A DNA stretch of 56,002 bases from Capnocytophaga catalasegens (GTDB lineage: Bacteria; Bacteroidota; Bacteroidia; Flavobacteriales; Flavobacteriaceae): NCBI RefSeq assembly GCF_026005215.1, contig NZ_BPMA01000036.1, forward strand, positions 15,295 through 71,296. Direction: 5' to 3'. Below are positions 22,272 through 46,954 of this stretch, in pieces. How positions within the stretch are numbered: position 1 is the stretch's first letter; the number at the start of each line of letters is the position of its first letter. Below the pieces are notes generated by a model, which was given only the letters and a program-made list of their open reading frames with translations, ran no database searches and was not told the origin of the DNA. Made by a program: the position numbers and the translations under genes.

Positions 22272-23561
22272 CTATAAATTATCTTTTTTCCAAGTTTCGT
22301 AAAAAGTTCGCTCAATAGCTTCTTGATGTTTCGGATGAGCAATATTAACAAGTATTTTCTGACGTTGAGCTAATGTTTTTCCTCGCAAATCAGCAATACC
22401 ATATTCGGTAACTACATACTGAATATGAAAACGAGTAGTTACAACTCCTGCTCCTAAACGTAAAAACGGAACAATACGACTTTCTCCATGTCTTGTCTCA
22501 GAAGGAAGAGCTATAATAGCCTTTCCTCCAACACTTTGTGAAGCTCCACGAACAAAATCAATCTGCCCACCAATTCCTGAATACATCTTTGTCCCAATAG
22601 AGTCAGCACAAACCTGACCTGTTATATCTACCTCAATAGCAGAATTAACCGAAATCATTTGTGTATTTTGAGCGATAATAGCGGGGGCATTTGTGTATTT
22701 GCTCTCACGAACTTCAATAATTGGATTGTCGTGAGCAAAATCATACAAGCGTTTTGAACCAAACATAAAAGTACAAACTACTTTGCCTGTATTTATTGTT
22801 TTTTTCTGTCCTGTAACAACACCTTTTTCAATCAAATCAACGACACCATCAGTTAATAATTCGGTATGTACTCCTAAGTGCTTTCTATTACTCAATTTTT
22901 TAAGAACTGCATCTGGCACAGACCCTATTCCCACCTGTATAGTCGAATTGTCTTCAATAAGTTGTGCTACATTTTCAGCTATCTTTTCCTCAACACCAGA
23001 GGTTCTCTCTGCATATTCCAGACCATACAAAGGACTATTATGAGGAACCAAATAGGTAATTTCACTTATATGAATTGATGTATCTCCAAAAGTACGAGGC
23101 ATATTTTCATTAACTTGCGCGATAACATAACGAGCGTGTTTGATTGCTGCCCAACAAGCCTCTACAGAAACTCCCAAAGAACAATATCCGTGGCGATCAG
23201 GAGGCGAAACACTTATAAAAACACCATCAATCGGAACTATTTTCTCATAAAAAAAACGAGGTAATTCACTTAGGAAAACAGGCGTATAAGAACCATTTCC
23301 TTCTTTTATGATATGTCTTACATTGTTTGATAGAAAAAATGAATTCACATAAAAACTCTCACGAAGCGAAGGGTCAGCATAAGCCGCATAATCAGAAGTT
23401 AAAATATGAGAAACTTCTACTCCTCTTAGTTCAGTAGCTCTTTTCGCTAAAGCATCTGTCAGAATTTTGGGAGTTGCTGCTGCTGCTTGCACGTAAATTC
23501 TATCACCCGATTGTACTATTTTTACAGCTTCGTCGGCTGTTGTGTATATGCAATTTTTCAT
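22272..23561 (-). CDS. Acetyl-CoA hydrolase/transferase family CoA-transferase
   Basis: A 429-residue enzyme of the family that includes 4-hydroxybutyrate CoA-transferase and acetate:succinyl-CoA transferases. Motifs are VSPPDRHGYCSLGVSVEA, STIQVGIGSVPDAVL, the nucleophile region HTELLTDGVVDL, GIGGQIDFVRGAS and the C-terminal VTEYGIADLRGKTLAQR. It would move CoA between acyl groups, perhaps in butyrate, succinate or acetate metabolism; the sequence does not fix the substrate. It starts 16 bases after hisS and is probably cotranscribed with it, although there is no metabolic link. Confidence 0.88.
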   Translation of the reverse strand: MKNCIYTTADEAVKIVQSGDRIYVQAAAATPKILTDALAKRATELRGVEVSHILTSDYAAYADPSLRESFYVNSFFLSNNVRHIIKEGNGSYTPVFLSELPRFFYEKIVPIDGVFISVSPPDRHGYCSLGVSVEACWAAIKHARYVIAQVNENMPRTFGDTSIHISEITYLVPHNSPLYGLEYAERTSGVEEKIAENVAQLIEDNSTIQVGIGSVPDAVLKKLSNRKHLGVHTELLTDGVVDLIEKGVVTGQKKTINTGKVVCTFMFGSKRLYDFAHDNPIIEVRESKYTNAPAIIAQNTQMISVNSAIEVDITGQVCADSIGTKMYSGIGGQIDFVRGASQSVGGKAIIALPSETRHGESRIVPFLRLGAGVVTTRFHIQYVVTEYGIADLRGKTLAQRQKILVNIAHPKHQEAIERTFYETWKKDNL

Positions 23562-25769: not shown

Positions 25770-26588
25770 ATGCAAATAGAACTTATCCCACAAATCAAAA
25801 ATACGACGTATGGCAACTTTTTTCTCATAGCTGGACCTTGCGCTATTGAGGGAGAGGAAATGGCTCTTCAAATTGCTGAAAAAATAACTCGCATTACGGA
25901 CAGATTACGTATTCCATATATATTTAAGGGTAGTTTTAAGAAAGCTAATCGTAGTCGTATTGATTCATTCACAGGAATTGGAGACGAAAAGGCACTTAAA
26001 ATCTTACAGAAGGTATCGAGTACCTTTGCAGTACCTACCCTAACAGATATACACCAAGTGGGCGATGCTTTTATGGCATCCGAATATGTAGATGTATTGC
26101 AAATCCCCGCTTTTCTGGTACGTCAAACAGATTTGGTTGTGGCAGCCGCTCAAACAGGTAAAGTGGTTAACCTGAAAAAAGGTCAGTTTATGAGTCCTGA
26201 GAGTATGAAACATGCGGTGCAAAAAGTGCTCGATTGTGGCAATCCGCAGGCTATTATAACCGATAGAGGCACAATGTTTGGCTATCAGGATATGATTGTA
26301 GATTTTCGAGGCATTCCAACAATGAAAAAGTATGCACCGGTAGTCTTAGACGTTACTCATTCGCTTCAACAGCCCAATCAGGACAGCGGTGTAACGGGTG
26401 GTCGCCCCGAAATGATTGAAACTATCGCCCGAGCAGGGGTTGTTAATAATGTCGATGGTTTATTTATCGAAACTCACTTCGACCCTAAGAATGCTAAAAG
26501 TGATGGAGCTAATATGTTACACTTAGACCTATTAGACAAACTTCTGACACGTTTGACAGCTATAAGACAAACGATAAACCAATTTTAA
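25770..26588 (+). CDS. kdsA: 3-deoxy-8-phosphooctulonate synthase
   Basis: A 272-residue enzyme condensing PEP with arabinose 5-phosphate to Kdo-8-phosphate for lipid A/LPS. Signatures are FLIAGPCAIEGEEMALQIAE, YIFKGSFKKANRSR, TLTDIHQVGDA, QTDLVVAAAQTGKVVNLKKGQFMSPE, TDRGTMFGYQDMIVDFRGI and FIETHFDPKNAKSDGANML. It is probably cotranscribed with bioD. A degenerate tandem array begins at or just after its stop codon. Confidence 0.97.
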   Translation: MQIELIPQIKNTTYGNFFLIAGPCAIEGEEMALQIAEKITRITDRLRIPYIFKGSFKKANRSRIDSFTGIGDEKALKILQKVSSTFAVPTLTDIHQVGDAFMASEYVDVLQIPAFLVRQTDLVVAAAQTGKVVNLKKGQFMSPESMKHAVQKVLDCGNPQAIITDRGTMFGYQDMIVDFRGIPTMKKYAPVVLDVTHSLQQPNQDSGVTGGRPEMIETIARAGVVNNVDGLFIETHFDPKNAKSDGANMLHLDLLDKLLTRLTAIRQTINQF

Positions 26589-26623
26589 TCAAGATATAAA
26601 GCTGCTTTTTAATGATTTTTTAT

Positions 26624-26989
26624 AAAAATTAACTTCAAAAAGATACCGAACAACATTTTATAAAAACAATCAACATAAAAAAGTTACCTTACTAATTTTT
26701 ATAAAAATATTTTAGACTGAAAAGCCACTTGATTAGTATTTATAAAAATATTTTAGTCTAAAAAGCCACTTTATAAATTAGAATAAAAATATTTTAACCC
26801 AAAAAGCCGCTTGACAAGGTAAAATAAAAACATTTTATCCTGAAAAGTTACTAGATAAGGTAAAACAAAAATATTTTATCCTAAAAAGTCGCTTGACAAG
26901 GTAAAATAAAAACATTTTATCCAAAAAAGCAACCAAATAAGGTGAATTAAAAATATTTCAACTAAAAAAACCTCTTTTTAAAGATAAAA
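26624..26989. repeat. Tandem array of 41-bp degenerate A/T-rich repeats
   Basis: Eight consecutive 41-bp units start at 26662, 26703, 26744, 26785, 26826, 26867, 26908 and 26949, preceded by a 38-bp unit at 26624. Decayed traces reach back to the kdsA stop and forward to about 27045. Each unit has an A-tract start (AAAAATATTTTA), a central AAAAAGCCGCTTGA-like block and an end like AAGGTAAAAT. Copies differ at many positions but the period has no indel across eight units. There is no open frame. The array fills the 462-base gap between kdsA and manA. Confidence 0.9.
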
Positions 26990-27050
26990 AATTAAAAAAA
27001 TCACCAAATAGACACTATATTAGTTAATAATAAAAATAAAATTATAAAAA

Positions 27051-28022
27051 ATGAAGCAATTATATCCATTCAAATTTCGTCCAATACTAAAAGAGCGTAT
27101 TTGGGGCGGAACAAAATTAAGAGATGTTTTTTCAAAACCCATTCCAAATGAAATCACAGGAGAAAGCTGGGAAGTATCGACTGTAAAAGGCGATGTTTCT
27201 ATAATTGATAACGGAAGTCTATCTGGCGAAAGCCTACAAAAACTACTTGATGAACAACCAGAGGCATTAGTAGGAAAACACATTTATGAGCGCTTCGGAA
27301 AGGAATTTCCTATTCTTATTAAGTTTATTGATGCCCGAGAAGACCTATCTATTCAGGTGCATCCGAATGATGAATTAGCAAAAAAGCGGCATAATTCCTT
27401 CGGAAAAACTGAAATGTGGTACGTTATGGACGCTGACAAAGACGCTCAACTTATTGTAGGGTTTAACAAATCAGTAACTAAGGAAGAATATCAGCAGCAC
27501 TTAGAGAATGGTACCCTGACCGAGATACTGAATTATGAACCAGTAAGCGAGGGTAGTACTTTTTTTATAAATACAGGTAAAGTACACGCCATAGGTGCAG
27601 GAACATTGTTAGCTGAAATACAACAAACCAGTGATATTACTTATCGGGTGTATGATTTTAATCGCCGAGACAAAAATGGCAATTTGCGCGAACTCCACAC
27701 AGAGCAAGCCCTCGATGCGATTGATTATCAGAAGAAAGATGATTTCAAGGTGCAATATAGCCACTCACTAAATGAGCATAATACTATGGTAAGCTGTCCG
27801 TACTTCATTACGAACTATCTGAAACTAAATCAAAATCTGCCAGTTGCTATTTCAGCCCGTGACTCTTTTCATATCTATATGTGTGTAAAAGGACAAGGTG
27901 CTATAACATACGGAGACCTTACAATGCCCATACAAAAGGGCGAAACGATTTTAGTTCCCGCAAGTTGTGAGCAGATTACCATTGAAACCAATGATATTGA
28001 GTTGTTAGAAGTATATTTGTAG
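27051..28022 (+). CDS. manA: Mannose-6-phosphate isomerase, class I
   Basis: A 323-residue cupin enzyme interconverting mannose 6-phosphate and fructose 6-phosphate. Features are KFRPILKERIWGGTKL, the Zn-binding SIQVHPNDELA and KTEMWYVMDA, the active-site GKVHAIGAGTLLAEIQQTSD followed by RVYDFNRRD, and a C-terminal cupin half ending in KGETILVPASCE. It is the short bacterial form. It lies after the 41-bp array and 96 bases before a GH130 enzyme, which suggests a small mannose-handling unit. No clear TAnnTTTG box is visible immediately upstream. Confidence 0.93.
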   Translation: MKQLYPFKFRPILKERIWGGTKLRDVFSKPIPNEITGESWEVSTVKGDVSIIDNGSLSGESLQKLLDEQPEALVGKHIYERFGKEFPILIKFIDAREDLSIQVHPNDELAKKRHNSFGKTEMWYVMDADKDAQLIVGFNKSVTKEEYQQHLENGTLTEILNYEPVSEGSTFFINTGKVHAIGAGTLLAEIQQTSDITYRVYDFNRRDKNGNLRELHTEQALDAIDYQKKDDFKVQYSHSLNEHNTMVSCPYFITNYLKLNQNLPVAISARDSFHIYMCVKGQGAITYGDLTMPIQKGETILVPASCEQITIETNDIELLEVYL

Positions 28023-36350: not shown

Positions 36351-36518
36351 CAACAATTTATTGAATTAGCAAATTTTATTTCAAAAATATTTAAAAAAAC
36401 TTAGGTCTTACTATAAATAATCTGTTCGAAAAATCTATTTTTAATTTTCTCATCTTCAATTTATATTTATTTGAAAAAAAATTGTAATTTCGTCCCGAAT
36501 TTTTGATACATAATTATT

Positions 36519-37037
36519 ATGAATAAAATTATAGAAATCATTGCTTATTGTATTCCAGCTATTATAGTAGGAATTGTTGCATACTATTTCTTCTTTTTAC
36601 ATTACAAAAACGAAGAAAAACGTCGCAAATTTTATCTTTTAAAAGAAAATCAAAAACAAGCCTTGCCTCTTCGCTTACAGGCTTATGAACGAATAACGTT
36701 ATTTTTGGATAGAATTAGTCCGCAAAAAATGCTTATGCGAGTAACTCCTCTCTCTCAGGATAAACGAGCTTATGAACTACTTCTCATTCAGCAAATTGAC
36801 AGCGAATTTGACCATAATATTACACAACAAATTTACATCAGTGAAGCCACTTGGAATGTTGTCAAAGCTGCCAAAAGCGCTACAATTCAGATTATTCGTA
36901 AAGTAGCAACCAGTGAAAATATAACCGATGCCGATACGATGCGTACAGCTATTCTTTCGGAATTTATTGATAAACAAACGCCTTCTAATCAGGCACTTTC
37001 GCATATTGTCAATGAAGTAAAAGAATTTTTATATTAA
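36519..37037 (+). CDS. Single-TM protein of unknown function, Bacteroidota-type
   Basis: A 172-residue protein with one N-terminal TM helix (about 9-29, CIPAIIVGIVAYYFFFLHY) and a cytoplasmic domain. It has a recognisable block LPLRLQAYERITLFLDRISP followed by QQIDSEFDHNITQQIYISEATWNVVKAAK. I have the impression of a short family conserved next to rplM in Flavobacteriia, but know no function. It is transcribed divergently from rplM and has its own terminator. Confidence 0.8.
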   Translation: MNKIIEIIAYCIPAIIVGIVAYYFFFLHYKNEEKRRKFYLLKENQKQALPLRLQAYERITLFLDRISPQKMLMRVTPLSQDKRAYELLLIQQIDSEFDHNITQQIYISEATWNVVKAAKSATIQIIRKVATSENITDADTMRTAILSEFIDKQTPSNQALSHIVNEVKEFLY

Positions 37038-45638: not shown

Positions 45639-46409
45639 TTATAGGTTTATAGAATCTTTATCTTCGGTCTTCATTCCATTTTTAGCAGAAGAAGATTGCG
45701 CTAATCGTTGTTTATTAGCATTCTTAGTATCTTCAATTAATTTATTAAGTAGGTTAATAAAAGATATACTTTCTTCTGACGGATTTATCAAATTCATCGC
45801 ATAGGCATATCTTACTACTTCATAATAAAGCTCACGAGTTTCTTTACGAACTTTCTTTACATTAACTAATAAAACATTAACCTGATTTTCAGCACGTCCT
45901 TCTAAGAGCTTTTGATAGCGTTGGTTCAAATCTTCCAAAGCGGTTACGGACTTTTGAAGTCCTAATATATTCACGTATTGTTCTAACTGAGGTTTTTTAA
46001 GATCTTTGAGTAGTGCATCAATCGCTTGTGATTTTTGCCGAATAGGCAAGGTTTGTACTCCTTTGTAGTTTTTAAACTCTTTATAGAGTACAGTAGCTGC
46101 TTCTTTACGTGAAGTTACTACATTTTTGCGCTCTAAACTAAACGAAGATACAACAAACGATAGCAATTCGCTACGTTGTTTATCAAGTGATATTAGTTTT
46201 TCAGTCTCTTGGCTTAATCTACTTTGTCGAGAAGCCTCGGTAAGTAGTTCCAAATTTCGTTTTAGCTCATTGAAAACATCTTCTTTTACTGATAATTTTT
46301 CCAATGTTGCATTGGTTGCTAGATTGACAACCCCTTTCATAAATTGAGCAAACTCATCATTATTTAGCTTATCTAAGGCTAATGAGTTGATAGTTGTTAA
46401 ATTTTTCAT
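45639..46409 (-). CDS. Helical protein of unknown function (DUF6261-like)
   Basis: A 256-residue protein from the ATG at 46409 (MKNLTTINSLALDKLNNDEF). The longer frame from 46433 would start inside the -7 box at 46431-46438. It is almost entirely alpha-helical with heptad-like patterns and many charged residues, e.g. GRAENQVNVLLVNVKKVRKETRELYYEVVRYAYAM split over two helices. It has no signal peptide or TM. It resembles a Bacteroidota-only DUF family of similar size; function unknown. It is transcribed before pepP and preceded by the 42-bp array. Confidence 0.75.
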   Translation of the reverse strand: MKNLTTINSLALDKLNNDEFAQFMKGVVNLATNATLEKLSVKEDVFNELKRNLELLTEASRQSRLSQETEKLISLDKQRSELLSFVVSSFSLERKNVVTSRKEAATVLYKEFKNYKGVQTLPIRQKSQAIDALLKDLKKPQLEQYVNILGLQKSVTALEDLNQRYQKLLEGRAENQVNVLLVNVKKVRKETRELYYEVVRYAYAMNLINPSEESISFINLLNKLIEDTKNANKQRLAQSSSAKNGMKTEDKDSINL

Positions 46410-46534: not shown

Positions 46535-46954
46535 ATTTTTTAGAAGCTAATAAATAAGATAGTTCTTATAAAATCTATTGGCTTAGCACTAATTTTTTTT
46601 CAGTGTACAACAAAATCTATTTTTTTATACCTAAAAAAAATAAAAAGTTATAGCAAATACATTTTCTTATAGCTAACAAACTACAAAACCTATTTCCAAT
46701 ACATTTTTTTATAGCTAACTAATTAAAAAATACTTTTCCAATCTATTTTCTTTTACCTACAAAATAAAAAATCTACTTTCCAACTTGTTTTCTTTTATCT
46801 AAAAAAAATAAGAGGTCATAGCAAATACATTTTTTTATAGCTAATATGTATAAAACTATATTTCTAATCAATTTTCTTTTACCTAAAAAATAAAAAATCT
46901 ATTTTCAAATCTGATGAATAACTAATAAAAAATATAAAATCTATACTATTATAT
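46535..46954. repeat. Tandem array of 42-bp degenerate A/T-rich repeats
   Basis: Ten 42-bp units start at 46535, 46577, 46619, 46661, 46703, 46745, 46787, 46829, 46871 and 46913; the first two and last are decayed. Each begins ATTTTCTTTTACCTAA or ATTTTTTTATAGCTAA and continues with an A-rich block ending near TTTTCCAATCT. Units 3-4 and 7-8 share the junction AGCAAATACATTTT, pointing to a past four-unit (168-bp) duplication. No frame is open. The array fills most of the 582-base gap between the S9 peptidase stop and the DUF6261-like promoter. Confidence 0.9.

Follow-up and report, generated by a model that had tools for sequence, protein, structure and literature searches.

The gap between two genes of Capnocytophaga catalasegens, which we take to be kdsA and manA, is AT-rich and contains a tandem array of 41-bp units. 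What kind of element is this array, and what could hold its spacing constant while its sequence drifts? These questions were approached from a window of 56,002 nucleotides, the whole stretch of DNA that was analysed, together with further parts of the genome and of its relatives.

The array at the kdsA locus

The 41-bp array between kdsA and manA is real (Table 1). In TRF it appears as three overlapping 41-bp rows between 26615 and 26958, where 77-78% of positions match and indels make up 0-1%. An ungapped scan gives its best score, 97.2, at lag 41 over the core; when the gap was shuffled 200 times with dinucleotides preserved, the score never rose above 15.7. The core is free of indels by construction of the ungapped scan, a result with which TRF concurs within 1%. 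On either side of it the sequence resembles decayed units with indels, as judged by eye; the strict period, which the first-pass annotation had assigned to the full 26583..27045 span, is thus limited to the core. The same annotation was right that spacing is conserved more strictly than sequence, and its reading of 41 bp as close to four helical turns agrees with the genome-wide rule described below.

Table 1. Positions of the two arrays and their neighbouring genes in the window.
Feature	Position	Strand	Description
kdsA	25770..26588	+	ORF, 272 aa, 5' of the array
Decayed left end of array	26583..26615	+	from the kdsA stop codon; letters judged by eye
Core tandem array, orphan (no adjoining DUF6261 gene)	26616..26969	+	41-bp units, 8.6 units, kdsA-manA gap
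Decayed right end of array	26970..27045	+	reaching the manA start; letters judged by eye
manA-like gene	27051..28022	+	ORF, 323 aa, 3' of the array
DUF6261 (PF19775) gene	45639..46409	-	256 aa; Pfam E 1.6e-37
Second array, DUF6261-linked	46613..46944	.	42-bp units, 7.9 units; TRF; scan score 53.5, lag 42

The locus itself differs among relatives. All 20 genomes of the genus have kdsA and 19 have manA, which is not next to kdsA in the other 18 genomes that possess it. Neither a 41-bp nor any other long-period array lies directly behind kdsA in the 19 congeners, one of which (G001) has a 7-bp repeat at that place. The first-pass annotation had named absence of the array from close relatives as a result that would refute its reading, and at this locus the array is indeed absent from them, though the class of array as such is present in several relatives.

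Repeat periods across the genome

The scan covered 1,202,345 bases of the 2.92-Mb C. catalasegens genome (G000), window included, plus parts of its relatives. For each non-coding region we took the best-scoring lag from 8 to 150, with a threshold score of 15; when 1,232 regions were each shuffled once, the highest score obtained was 13.9. The other 6 of the 1,238 regions contain N and had no shuffled control, and three G020 stretches, read as N, yielded nothing. In the C. catalasegens genome, 39 non-coding arrays were found, with lags of 8, 14, 21 (4 arrays), 22 (2), 41 (7), 42 (9), 43, 44, 63 (3), 65, 73, 82, 84 (4), 86, 109 and 130. Thirty of these periods fall within 1 bp of a multiple of 21 (21n), for which uniformly distributed lags would give a binomial p of 5e-18. 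A single period comes close to 10.5 times an odd number, and 18 of the 39 arrays have their best lag at 41-44 bp. The count does not include C16:156805, C12:43755 and C18:124864, gene-linked arrays that were identified subsequently. Pooled autocorrelation over 388 intergenic regions of the genome peaks at 42 (z 14), 21 (10), 84 (8), 126 (6.6), 63 (4.3) and 41 (4.0), with no peak at 10, 11, 31 or 52. Unit sequences, a few families excepted, are mostly no more alike from array to array than shuffles, and coding repeats were rejected as an explanation, 1 of the listed AT-rich arrays of at least 80 bp falling in an ORF of at least 100 aa. C. catalasegens therefore contains a constant-size, variable-sequence class of non-coding repeats, and the kdsA array belongs to this genome-wide class, which keeps approximately two or four helical turns regardless of sequence.

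The rule extends unevenly to the relatives. In the congener G016, 8 of 13 arrays lie within 1 bp of 21n (p 1e-4); the corresponding counts are 3/3 in G003, 2/3 in G018, 2/3 in G009 (lags 125 and 127), 2/4 in G010, 1/5 in G017, 0/3 in G001, 0/2 in G007 and 0/2 in G011, and the remaining sampled congeners yielded no array at score 15. Pooled autocorrelation in G010 peaks instead at 11, 22 and 14. Among other genera, eight sampled genomes gave three arrays, one of them at 21n, and 80 flavobacterial kdsA loci gave nine arrays, none at 21n. A 21-bp unit resembling TCAGTCAGAATTCATTTC recurs in exact 21-bp steps in G003, G006, G008, G009 and G016 as well, partly at corresponding loci. We also observed a 21-bp array beside the gene of a 389-aa protein at the same place in three species (G000 C17:7498-7736; L275 in G016; L278 in G008). 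A different repeat habit is seen in G017, a genome with one DUF6261 copy, where 11-bp arrays of ACGAACAAAAG-like units occupy C1:215-452, 22565-22804 and 36502-36684.

Arrays upstream of DUF6261 genes

The second array of the window lies upstream of a DUF6261 gene, whose start faces it at a distance of 204 bp. DUF6261 matches number 29 in C. catalasegens and from 0 to 25 in other members of the genus (none in 6 of 19), and the family was present in 6 of 296 sampled Bacteroidota genomes, C. catalasegens included. Nine of ten sampled C. catalasegens DUF6261 genes have a 41/42-bp array upstream (scores 41-167) and one has none; this count covers ten of the 29 copies, the gene on contig 32 having been read separately. 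By comparison, an array of any kind within 900 bp upstream was found for 46 of 869 genes of this genome overall, or 37 of 859 once these ten are set apart (Fisher p 1.4e-11). Three of the ten genes had themselves suggested the link, and excluding them leaves six of seven with an upstream array (p 7e-8). At one counted gene (C18:100626) the array is 745 bp off with a 181-aa ORF in between; a 120-aa ORF, which we took to be spurious, coincides in part with the array at C12:43000. The association is one-sided, in that the downstream sides of the same ten genes show no array at score 15. Comparison of arrays with their neighbours showed that paralogues flank arrays of differing sequence.

Within the genus the association varies. 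One of three DUF6261 genes in G016 has an upstream array, and that one had helped to suggest the link; the other two have none. In G009, one gene has an upstream array scoring 15.7, while the other reaches no more than 14.9 upstream and has a lag-85 array downstream instead (21.9), and one G019 gene, whose upstream letters are missing, was excluded. Beyond the family, Parabacteroides distasonis (Bacteroidales) has two DUF6261 genes, one with a strong 42-bp array (57.0) and the other with a faint one (11.2) whose score was reached by none of 200 shuffles. Two genes were picked unseen: that of G028, from another family of the order, has a 42-bp array (23.8; shuffle maximum 8.6), and that of G108, listed as sharing only the phylum, a 41-bp array (15.3; shuffle maximum 12.5). 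Taking all evaluable DUF6261 genes at score 15, with the contig-32 gene left out, 14 of 19 have an array, or 10 of 15 when the four genes that suggested the link are excluded. An upstream array thus accompanies most of the DUF6261 genes examined, and within Bacteroidota the link reaches beyond the family and the order of C. catalasegens. In G028, the 42-bp units 5' of the DUF6261 gene (L284, 432-558) are nearly full-length inverted repeats, CCGGGAAAGGTTGTTGC...GCGACAAACTTTCCCGG, both arms of which change between units. No DUF6261 gene was found in phages or viral contigs, and among plasmids only in two Parabacteroides records of one strain.

DUF6261 proteins may be candidate recognisers of the arrays upstream of their genes. 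The protein encoded in the window has no recognised DNA-binding domain; Pfam assigns it to a family of unknown function, its NCBIfam match is far below the cut-off, PADLOC gives no match, and a sequence search of the PDB returned nothing below E 0.09. A single-sequence AlphaFold model (pLDDT 48) was set aside as unusable. We considered coevolution of protein and array and rejected it for the 13 modules compared, where protein likeness does not predict array likeness (Mantel r 0.10, p 0.22, not significant). Such a mismatch would fit fast turnover and is not evidence for recognition.

Orphan copies

Unlike the window's second array, that at kdsA lacks an adjoining DUF6261 gene. When the genome was searched with it and 40 of 130 candidates were scored, the best match other than itself (E 0.002, 68% identity) fell on contig 32, some 400 bp 5' of where a DUF6261 gene is estimated to start. 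A degenerate 41/82-bp array is present in this contig-32 region (scores 17.0 and 18.0, where shuffles reach at most 11.9); AAAAAGCAACTCGACAG is one of its units, and a comparable kdsA unit is AAAAAGCCGCTTGACAAG. The region was selected as the best match of a genome search. Its alignment score is 50; in 1,154 further intergenic comparisons the score did not exceed 35, and 300 column-permuted (unit-permuted) versions reached at most 34 against 44. Scored array against array, the pair has z 11.5 (9.1 and 10.8 in other runs), against -2.3 to 2.3 for the kdsA array and thirteen other gene-linked arrays. Single z values need care, since one reversed control reached z 12.5; taken together, a z of at least 8 with a gene-linked array was obtained for 8 of 36 orphan arrays and for 1 of 36 reversed controls. 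There are thus orphans, that at kdsA among them, which resemble one particular gene-linked array in sequence. With a 41-bp period inside the 41-43 bp typical of DUF6261-linked arrays, no DUF6261 neighbour and its closest kin in the contig-32 array, the kdsA array is read here as an orphan copy. A second orphan with an identifiable gene-linked relative is the 42/84-bp array at L047:19383-19749 (G000 contig 7), which resembles the second array of the window (z 13-16).

Other gene families beside arrays

Arrays also adjoin genes of other families. All three sampled C. catalasegens members of the PQLLE family (NF052641) over the cut-off have upstream 21n arrays, as does a more distant G016 gene joined to the family by similarity. 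It was the arrays that drew attention to this family, and the 21-mer itself led to four further cases, so the PQLLE cases are not independent. Homology between DUF6261 and PQLLE was considered and dismissed (hhalign probability 0.4%), and no PQLLE gene was found in plasmids.

Two further associations, each from few cases, lie on the 3' side of genes. In four of six HU-HIG-like genes (G000 C16:112931-113320, C16:131656-132045 and C5:12094-12480; G003 C1:33582-33971) the best lag right after the stop is 22 bp, with scores of 9.5-17.8, one of them over 15; the unit at the G000 C5 gene contains AAACCA-AGCG-TGGTTT, resembling duplicated terminators. The genes of two related 166-168-aa proteins are each followed immediately by an array, with periods of 63 and 65 bp (G000 C1:15583-15786 and C14:127602-127733); a third relative, in G017, has no array.

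Proposed mechanism and alternatives

Four features are consistent with a DNA-binding protein that may also polymerise along the DNA: the whole-turn period, the one-sided link to genes, the kinship of orphans to gene-linked arrays, and inverted repeats, which 9 of the 16 gene-linked arrays have at z >1.5 against unit-permuted controls. We suggest that the kdsA array is an orphan of a dispersed set based upstream of DUF6261 genes, whose paralogues would bind the arrays; we give this reading a probability slightly short of even. Each paralogue might be an oligomer with its own array, in double-stranded form, as target; one complex would occupy each four-turn unit, which would place adjacent complexes on the same face and in contact. 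The protein would then fix the spacing, and the sequence could drift from paralogue to paralogue. Next to its own gene the array could serve as an autoregulatory operator, and at orphan sites such as kdsA-manA as a remote binding or bridging site, or it may be a decaying relic; PQLLE-family proteins might play an equivalent role with 21-bp units. A broader version, in which DUF6261 and, separately, PQLLE would be dedicated recognition proteins of constant-period satellites, is a more speculative and somewhat unlikely extension. Its paralogue-by-paralogue network would have each protein coat its own array in steps of four (or two) helical turns and bridge orphans such as kdsA-manA to its gene. 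If true, such a network would be a new kind of locus-specific chromosome organiser.

The first-pass annotation saw in the array helically phased A-tracts that would bend the DNA and, as a possibility, a curved-DNA or nucleoid-protein platform. The phasing did not hold up. Tract centres in the kdsA array are 5.5-25.5 bp apart. For the thirty A/T-tracts of at least four letters in the core, coherence at 10.5 bp is 0.14, below the shuffle mean of 0.19; at 10.25 bp it is 0.35, within the 95% limit of shuffles (0.38). No phasing appeared at any helical repeat tried from 10.0 to 11.0 bp, so that the array falls outside phased A-tract curved DNA. At 10.5 bp per turn, 41 bp is one base short of four turns, and successive units shift progressively in phase; the results do not support a bend that is phased and planar. 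The predicted bending fared better in part, as a wedge model with Bolshoy wedge values places the kdsA array well above dinucleotide shuffles (z 4.0), though barely above controls in which the units were permuted and the period kept (z 1.7). For the whole set of 49 arrays the model gives mean z 1.39 and 0.74 against the two controls, with 17 arrays at z of at least 2.0 and 32 below it, so that in this model arrays are somewhat, and unevenly, more curved than controls. The period is retained in GC-richer arrays of the genome as well (GC 0.56, 0.39 and 0.38; periods 43, 41 and 41/82). With no phasing, modest curvature and the same period at higher GC, phased A-tract bending was rejected as a general cause, and a curved platform of this kind is very improbable for the kdsA array. 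The other function proposed at first, an RNA spacer or 3' UTR element shielding the kdsA mRNA, has in its favour that the array begins at the kdsA stop; yet 19 of 19 congeners lack such an array behind kdsA, the Rfam scan of the window found one tRNA elsewhere and no match at the array, and no intrinsic terminator was found in 26400-27300. We consider that role to be extremely improbable.

Closer to the observed gene link, the array might be transcribed as a string of hairpins bound by the downstream DUF6261 protein, by analogy with type III toxin-antitoxin modules. The position of arrays 5' of the gene and the inverted repeats would suit such an RNA, as would folding energies that, over the 49 arrays, are lower than after permutation of the units (mean z -1.44 on one strand and -1.48 on the other) and a small sense-strand wobble excess in the nine arrays with inverted repeats, 13 GT versus 6 AC among units that are not independent. 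However, near-whole-turn periods (21, 41-43, 63) have no obvious RNA reason, wobble in the kdsA array favours the other strand (3 versus 8), the minus-strand folding excess over dinucleotide-kept unit shuffles is only mean z -0.86, and DUF6261 matches no toxin or defence model; an RNA module is distinctly unlikely. Marginally easier to accept, but still unlikely, is that the arrays are neutral satellites of a lineage that duplicates DNA in steps of two or four turns and persist without function. The higher-order repeats of 42, 63, 84 and 126 bp and the turnover evident behind kdsA, where none of the congeners has a long-period array, are what such satellites would produce, but neutrality leaves unexplained why arrays lie upstream of nine of the ten sampled C. 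catalasegens DUF6261 genes and downstream of none, and why the link recurs in distant relatives and in Parabacteroides.

Comparison with known systems

Several known systems resemble the proposed pairing of DUF6261 proteins with arrays. In type III toxin-antitoxin systems, the gene of the toxin directly follows a tandem array whose units are constant in length but variable in sequence, and the arrays here likewise lie directly 5' of a protein gene. Unlike in those systems, DUF6261 matches no toxin or defence model, orphans occur, and lengths track helical turns; in Pfam, NCBIfam and PADLOC searches the window DUF6261 gene does not appear as an adjacent toxin of what we take to be the ToxN/AbiQ/TenpN/CptN type. 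Iterons and operator arrays are direct repeats approximately two helical turns apart that are bound, in the familiar cases, by a protein encoded beside them. The arrays described here share the direct repeats and the gene alongside, with binding that is putative, and differ in being many per genome and of differing sequence. REP/BIME elements with their RAYT transposases are dispersed repeats with inverted parts adjoining a gene family, a description that also suits the present arrays, except that DUF6261 is not a transposase by Pfam and the arrays have no one common sequence.

The closest counterpart is the class described by Subirana and Messeguer in 2021 (PMC8161180), in which repeats of constant size and variable sequence, with units of 20-21 or 52 nt and a few of 40-41 nt, were found in Bacillus and other groups; their function was unknown and they were termed enigmatic. 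Those authors noted that 20-21 nt makes two helix turns and suggested a polymerising protein or small RNAs (PMC8161180). The arrays reported here are likewise non-coding, constant in unit length, unrelated in sequence and grouped in species-specific families, but 41-44 bp is their largest class beside 21n, and the kdsA array, with its 41-bp unit outside the published 20-21 or 52 nt, is a variant rather than a plain member of that class. The main text of that paper has no mention of Bacteroid or Capnocytophaga, and the parts of it consulted name no linked gene or binding protein, whereas DUF6261 and PQLLE genes are linked to arrays here. We found no published report of the DUF6261-array link among open-licence papers, one of which names DUF6261; a 2020 paper by Subirana and Messeguer may list Bacteroidota or 41-42 nt units. 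The general kind of repeat has thus been described before, and the link of constant-period arrays to DUF6261 genes is what is new here. The presence of DUF6261 genes at arrays in several families of one phylum provides concrete candidates for a binding protein, turning the question of constant size into a binding experiment and offering a starting point for the unstudied DUF6261 family.
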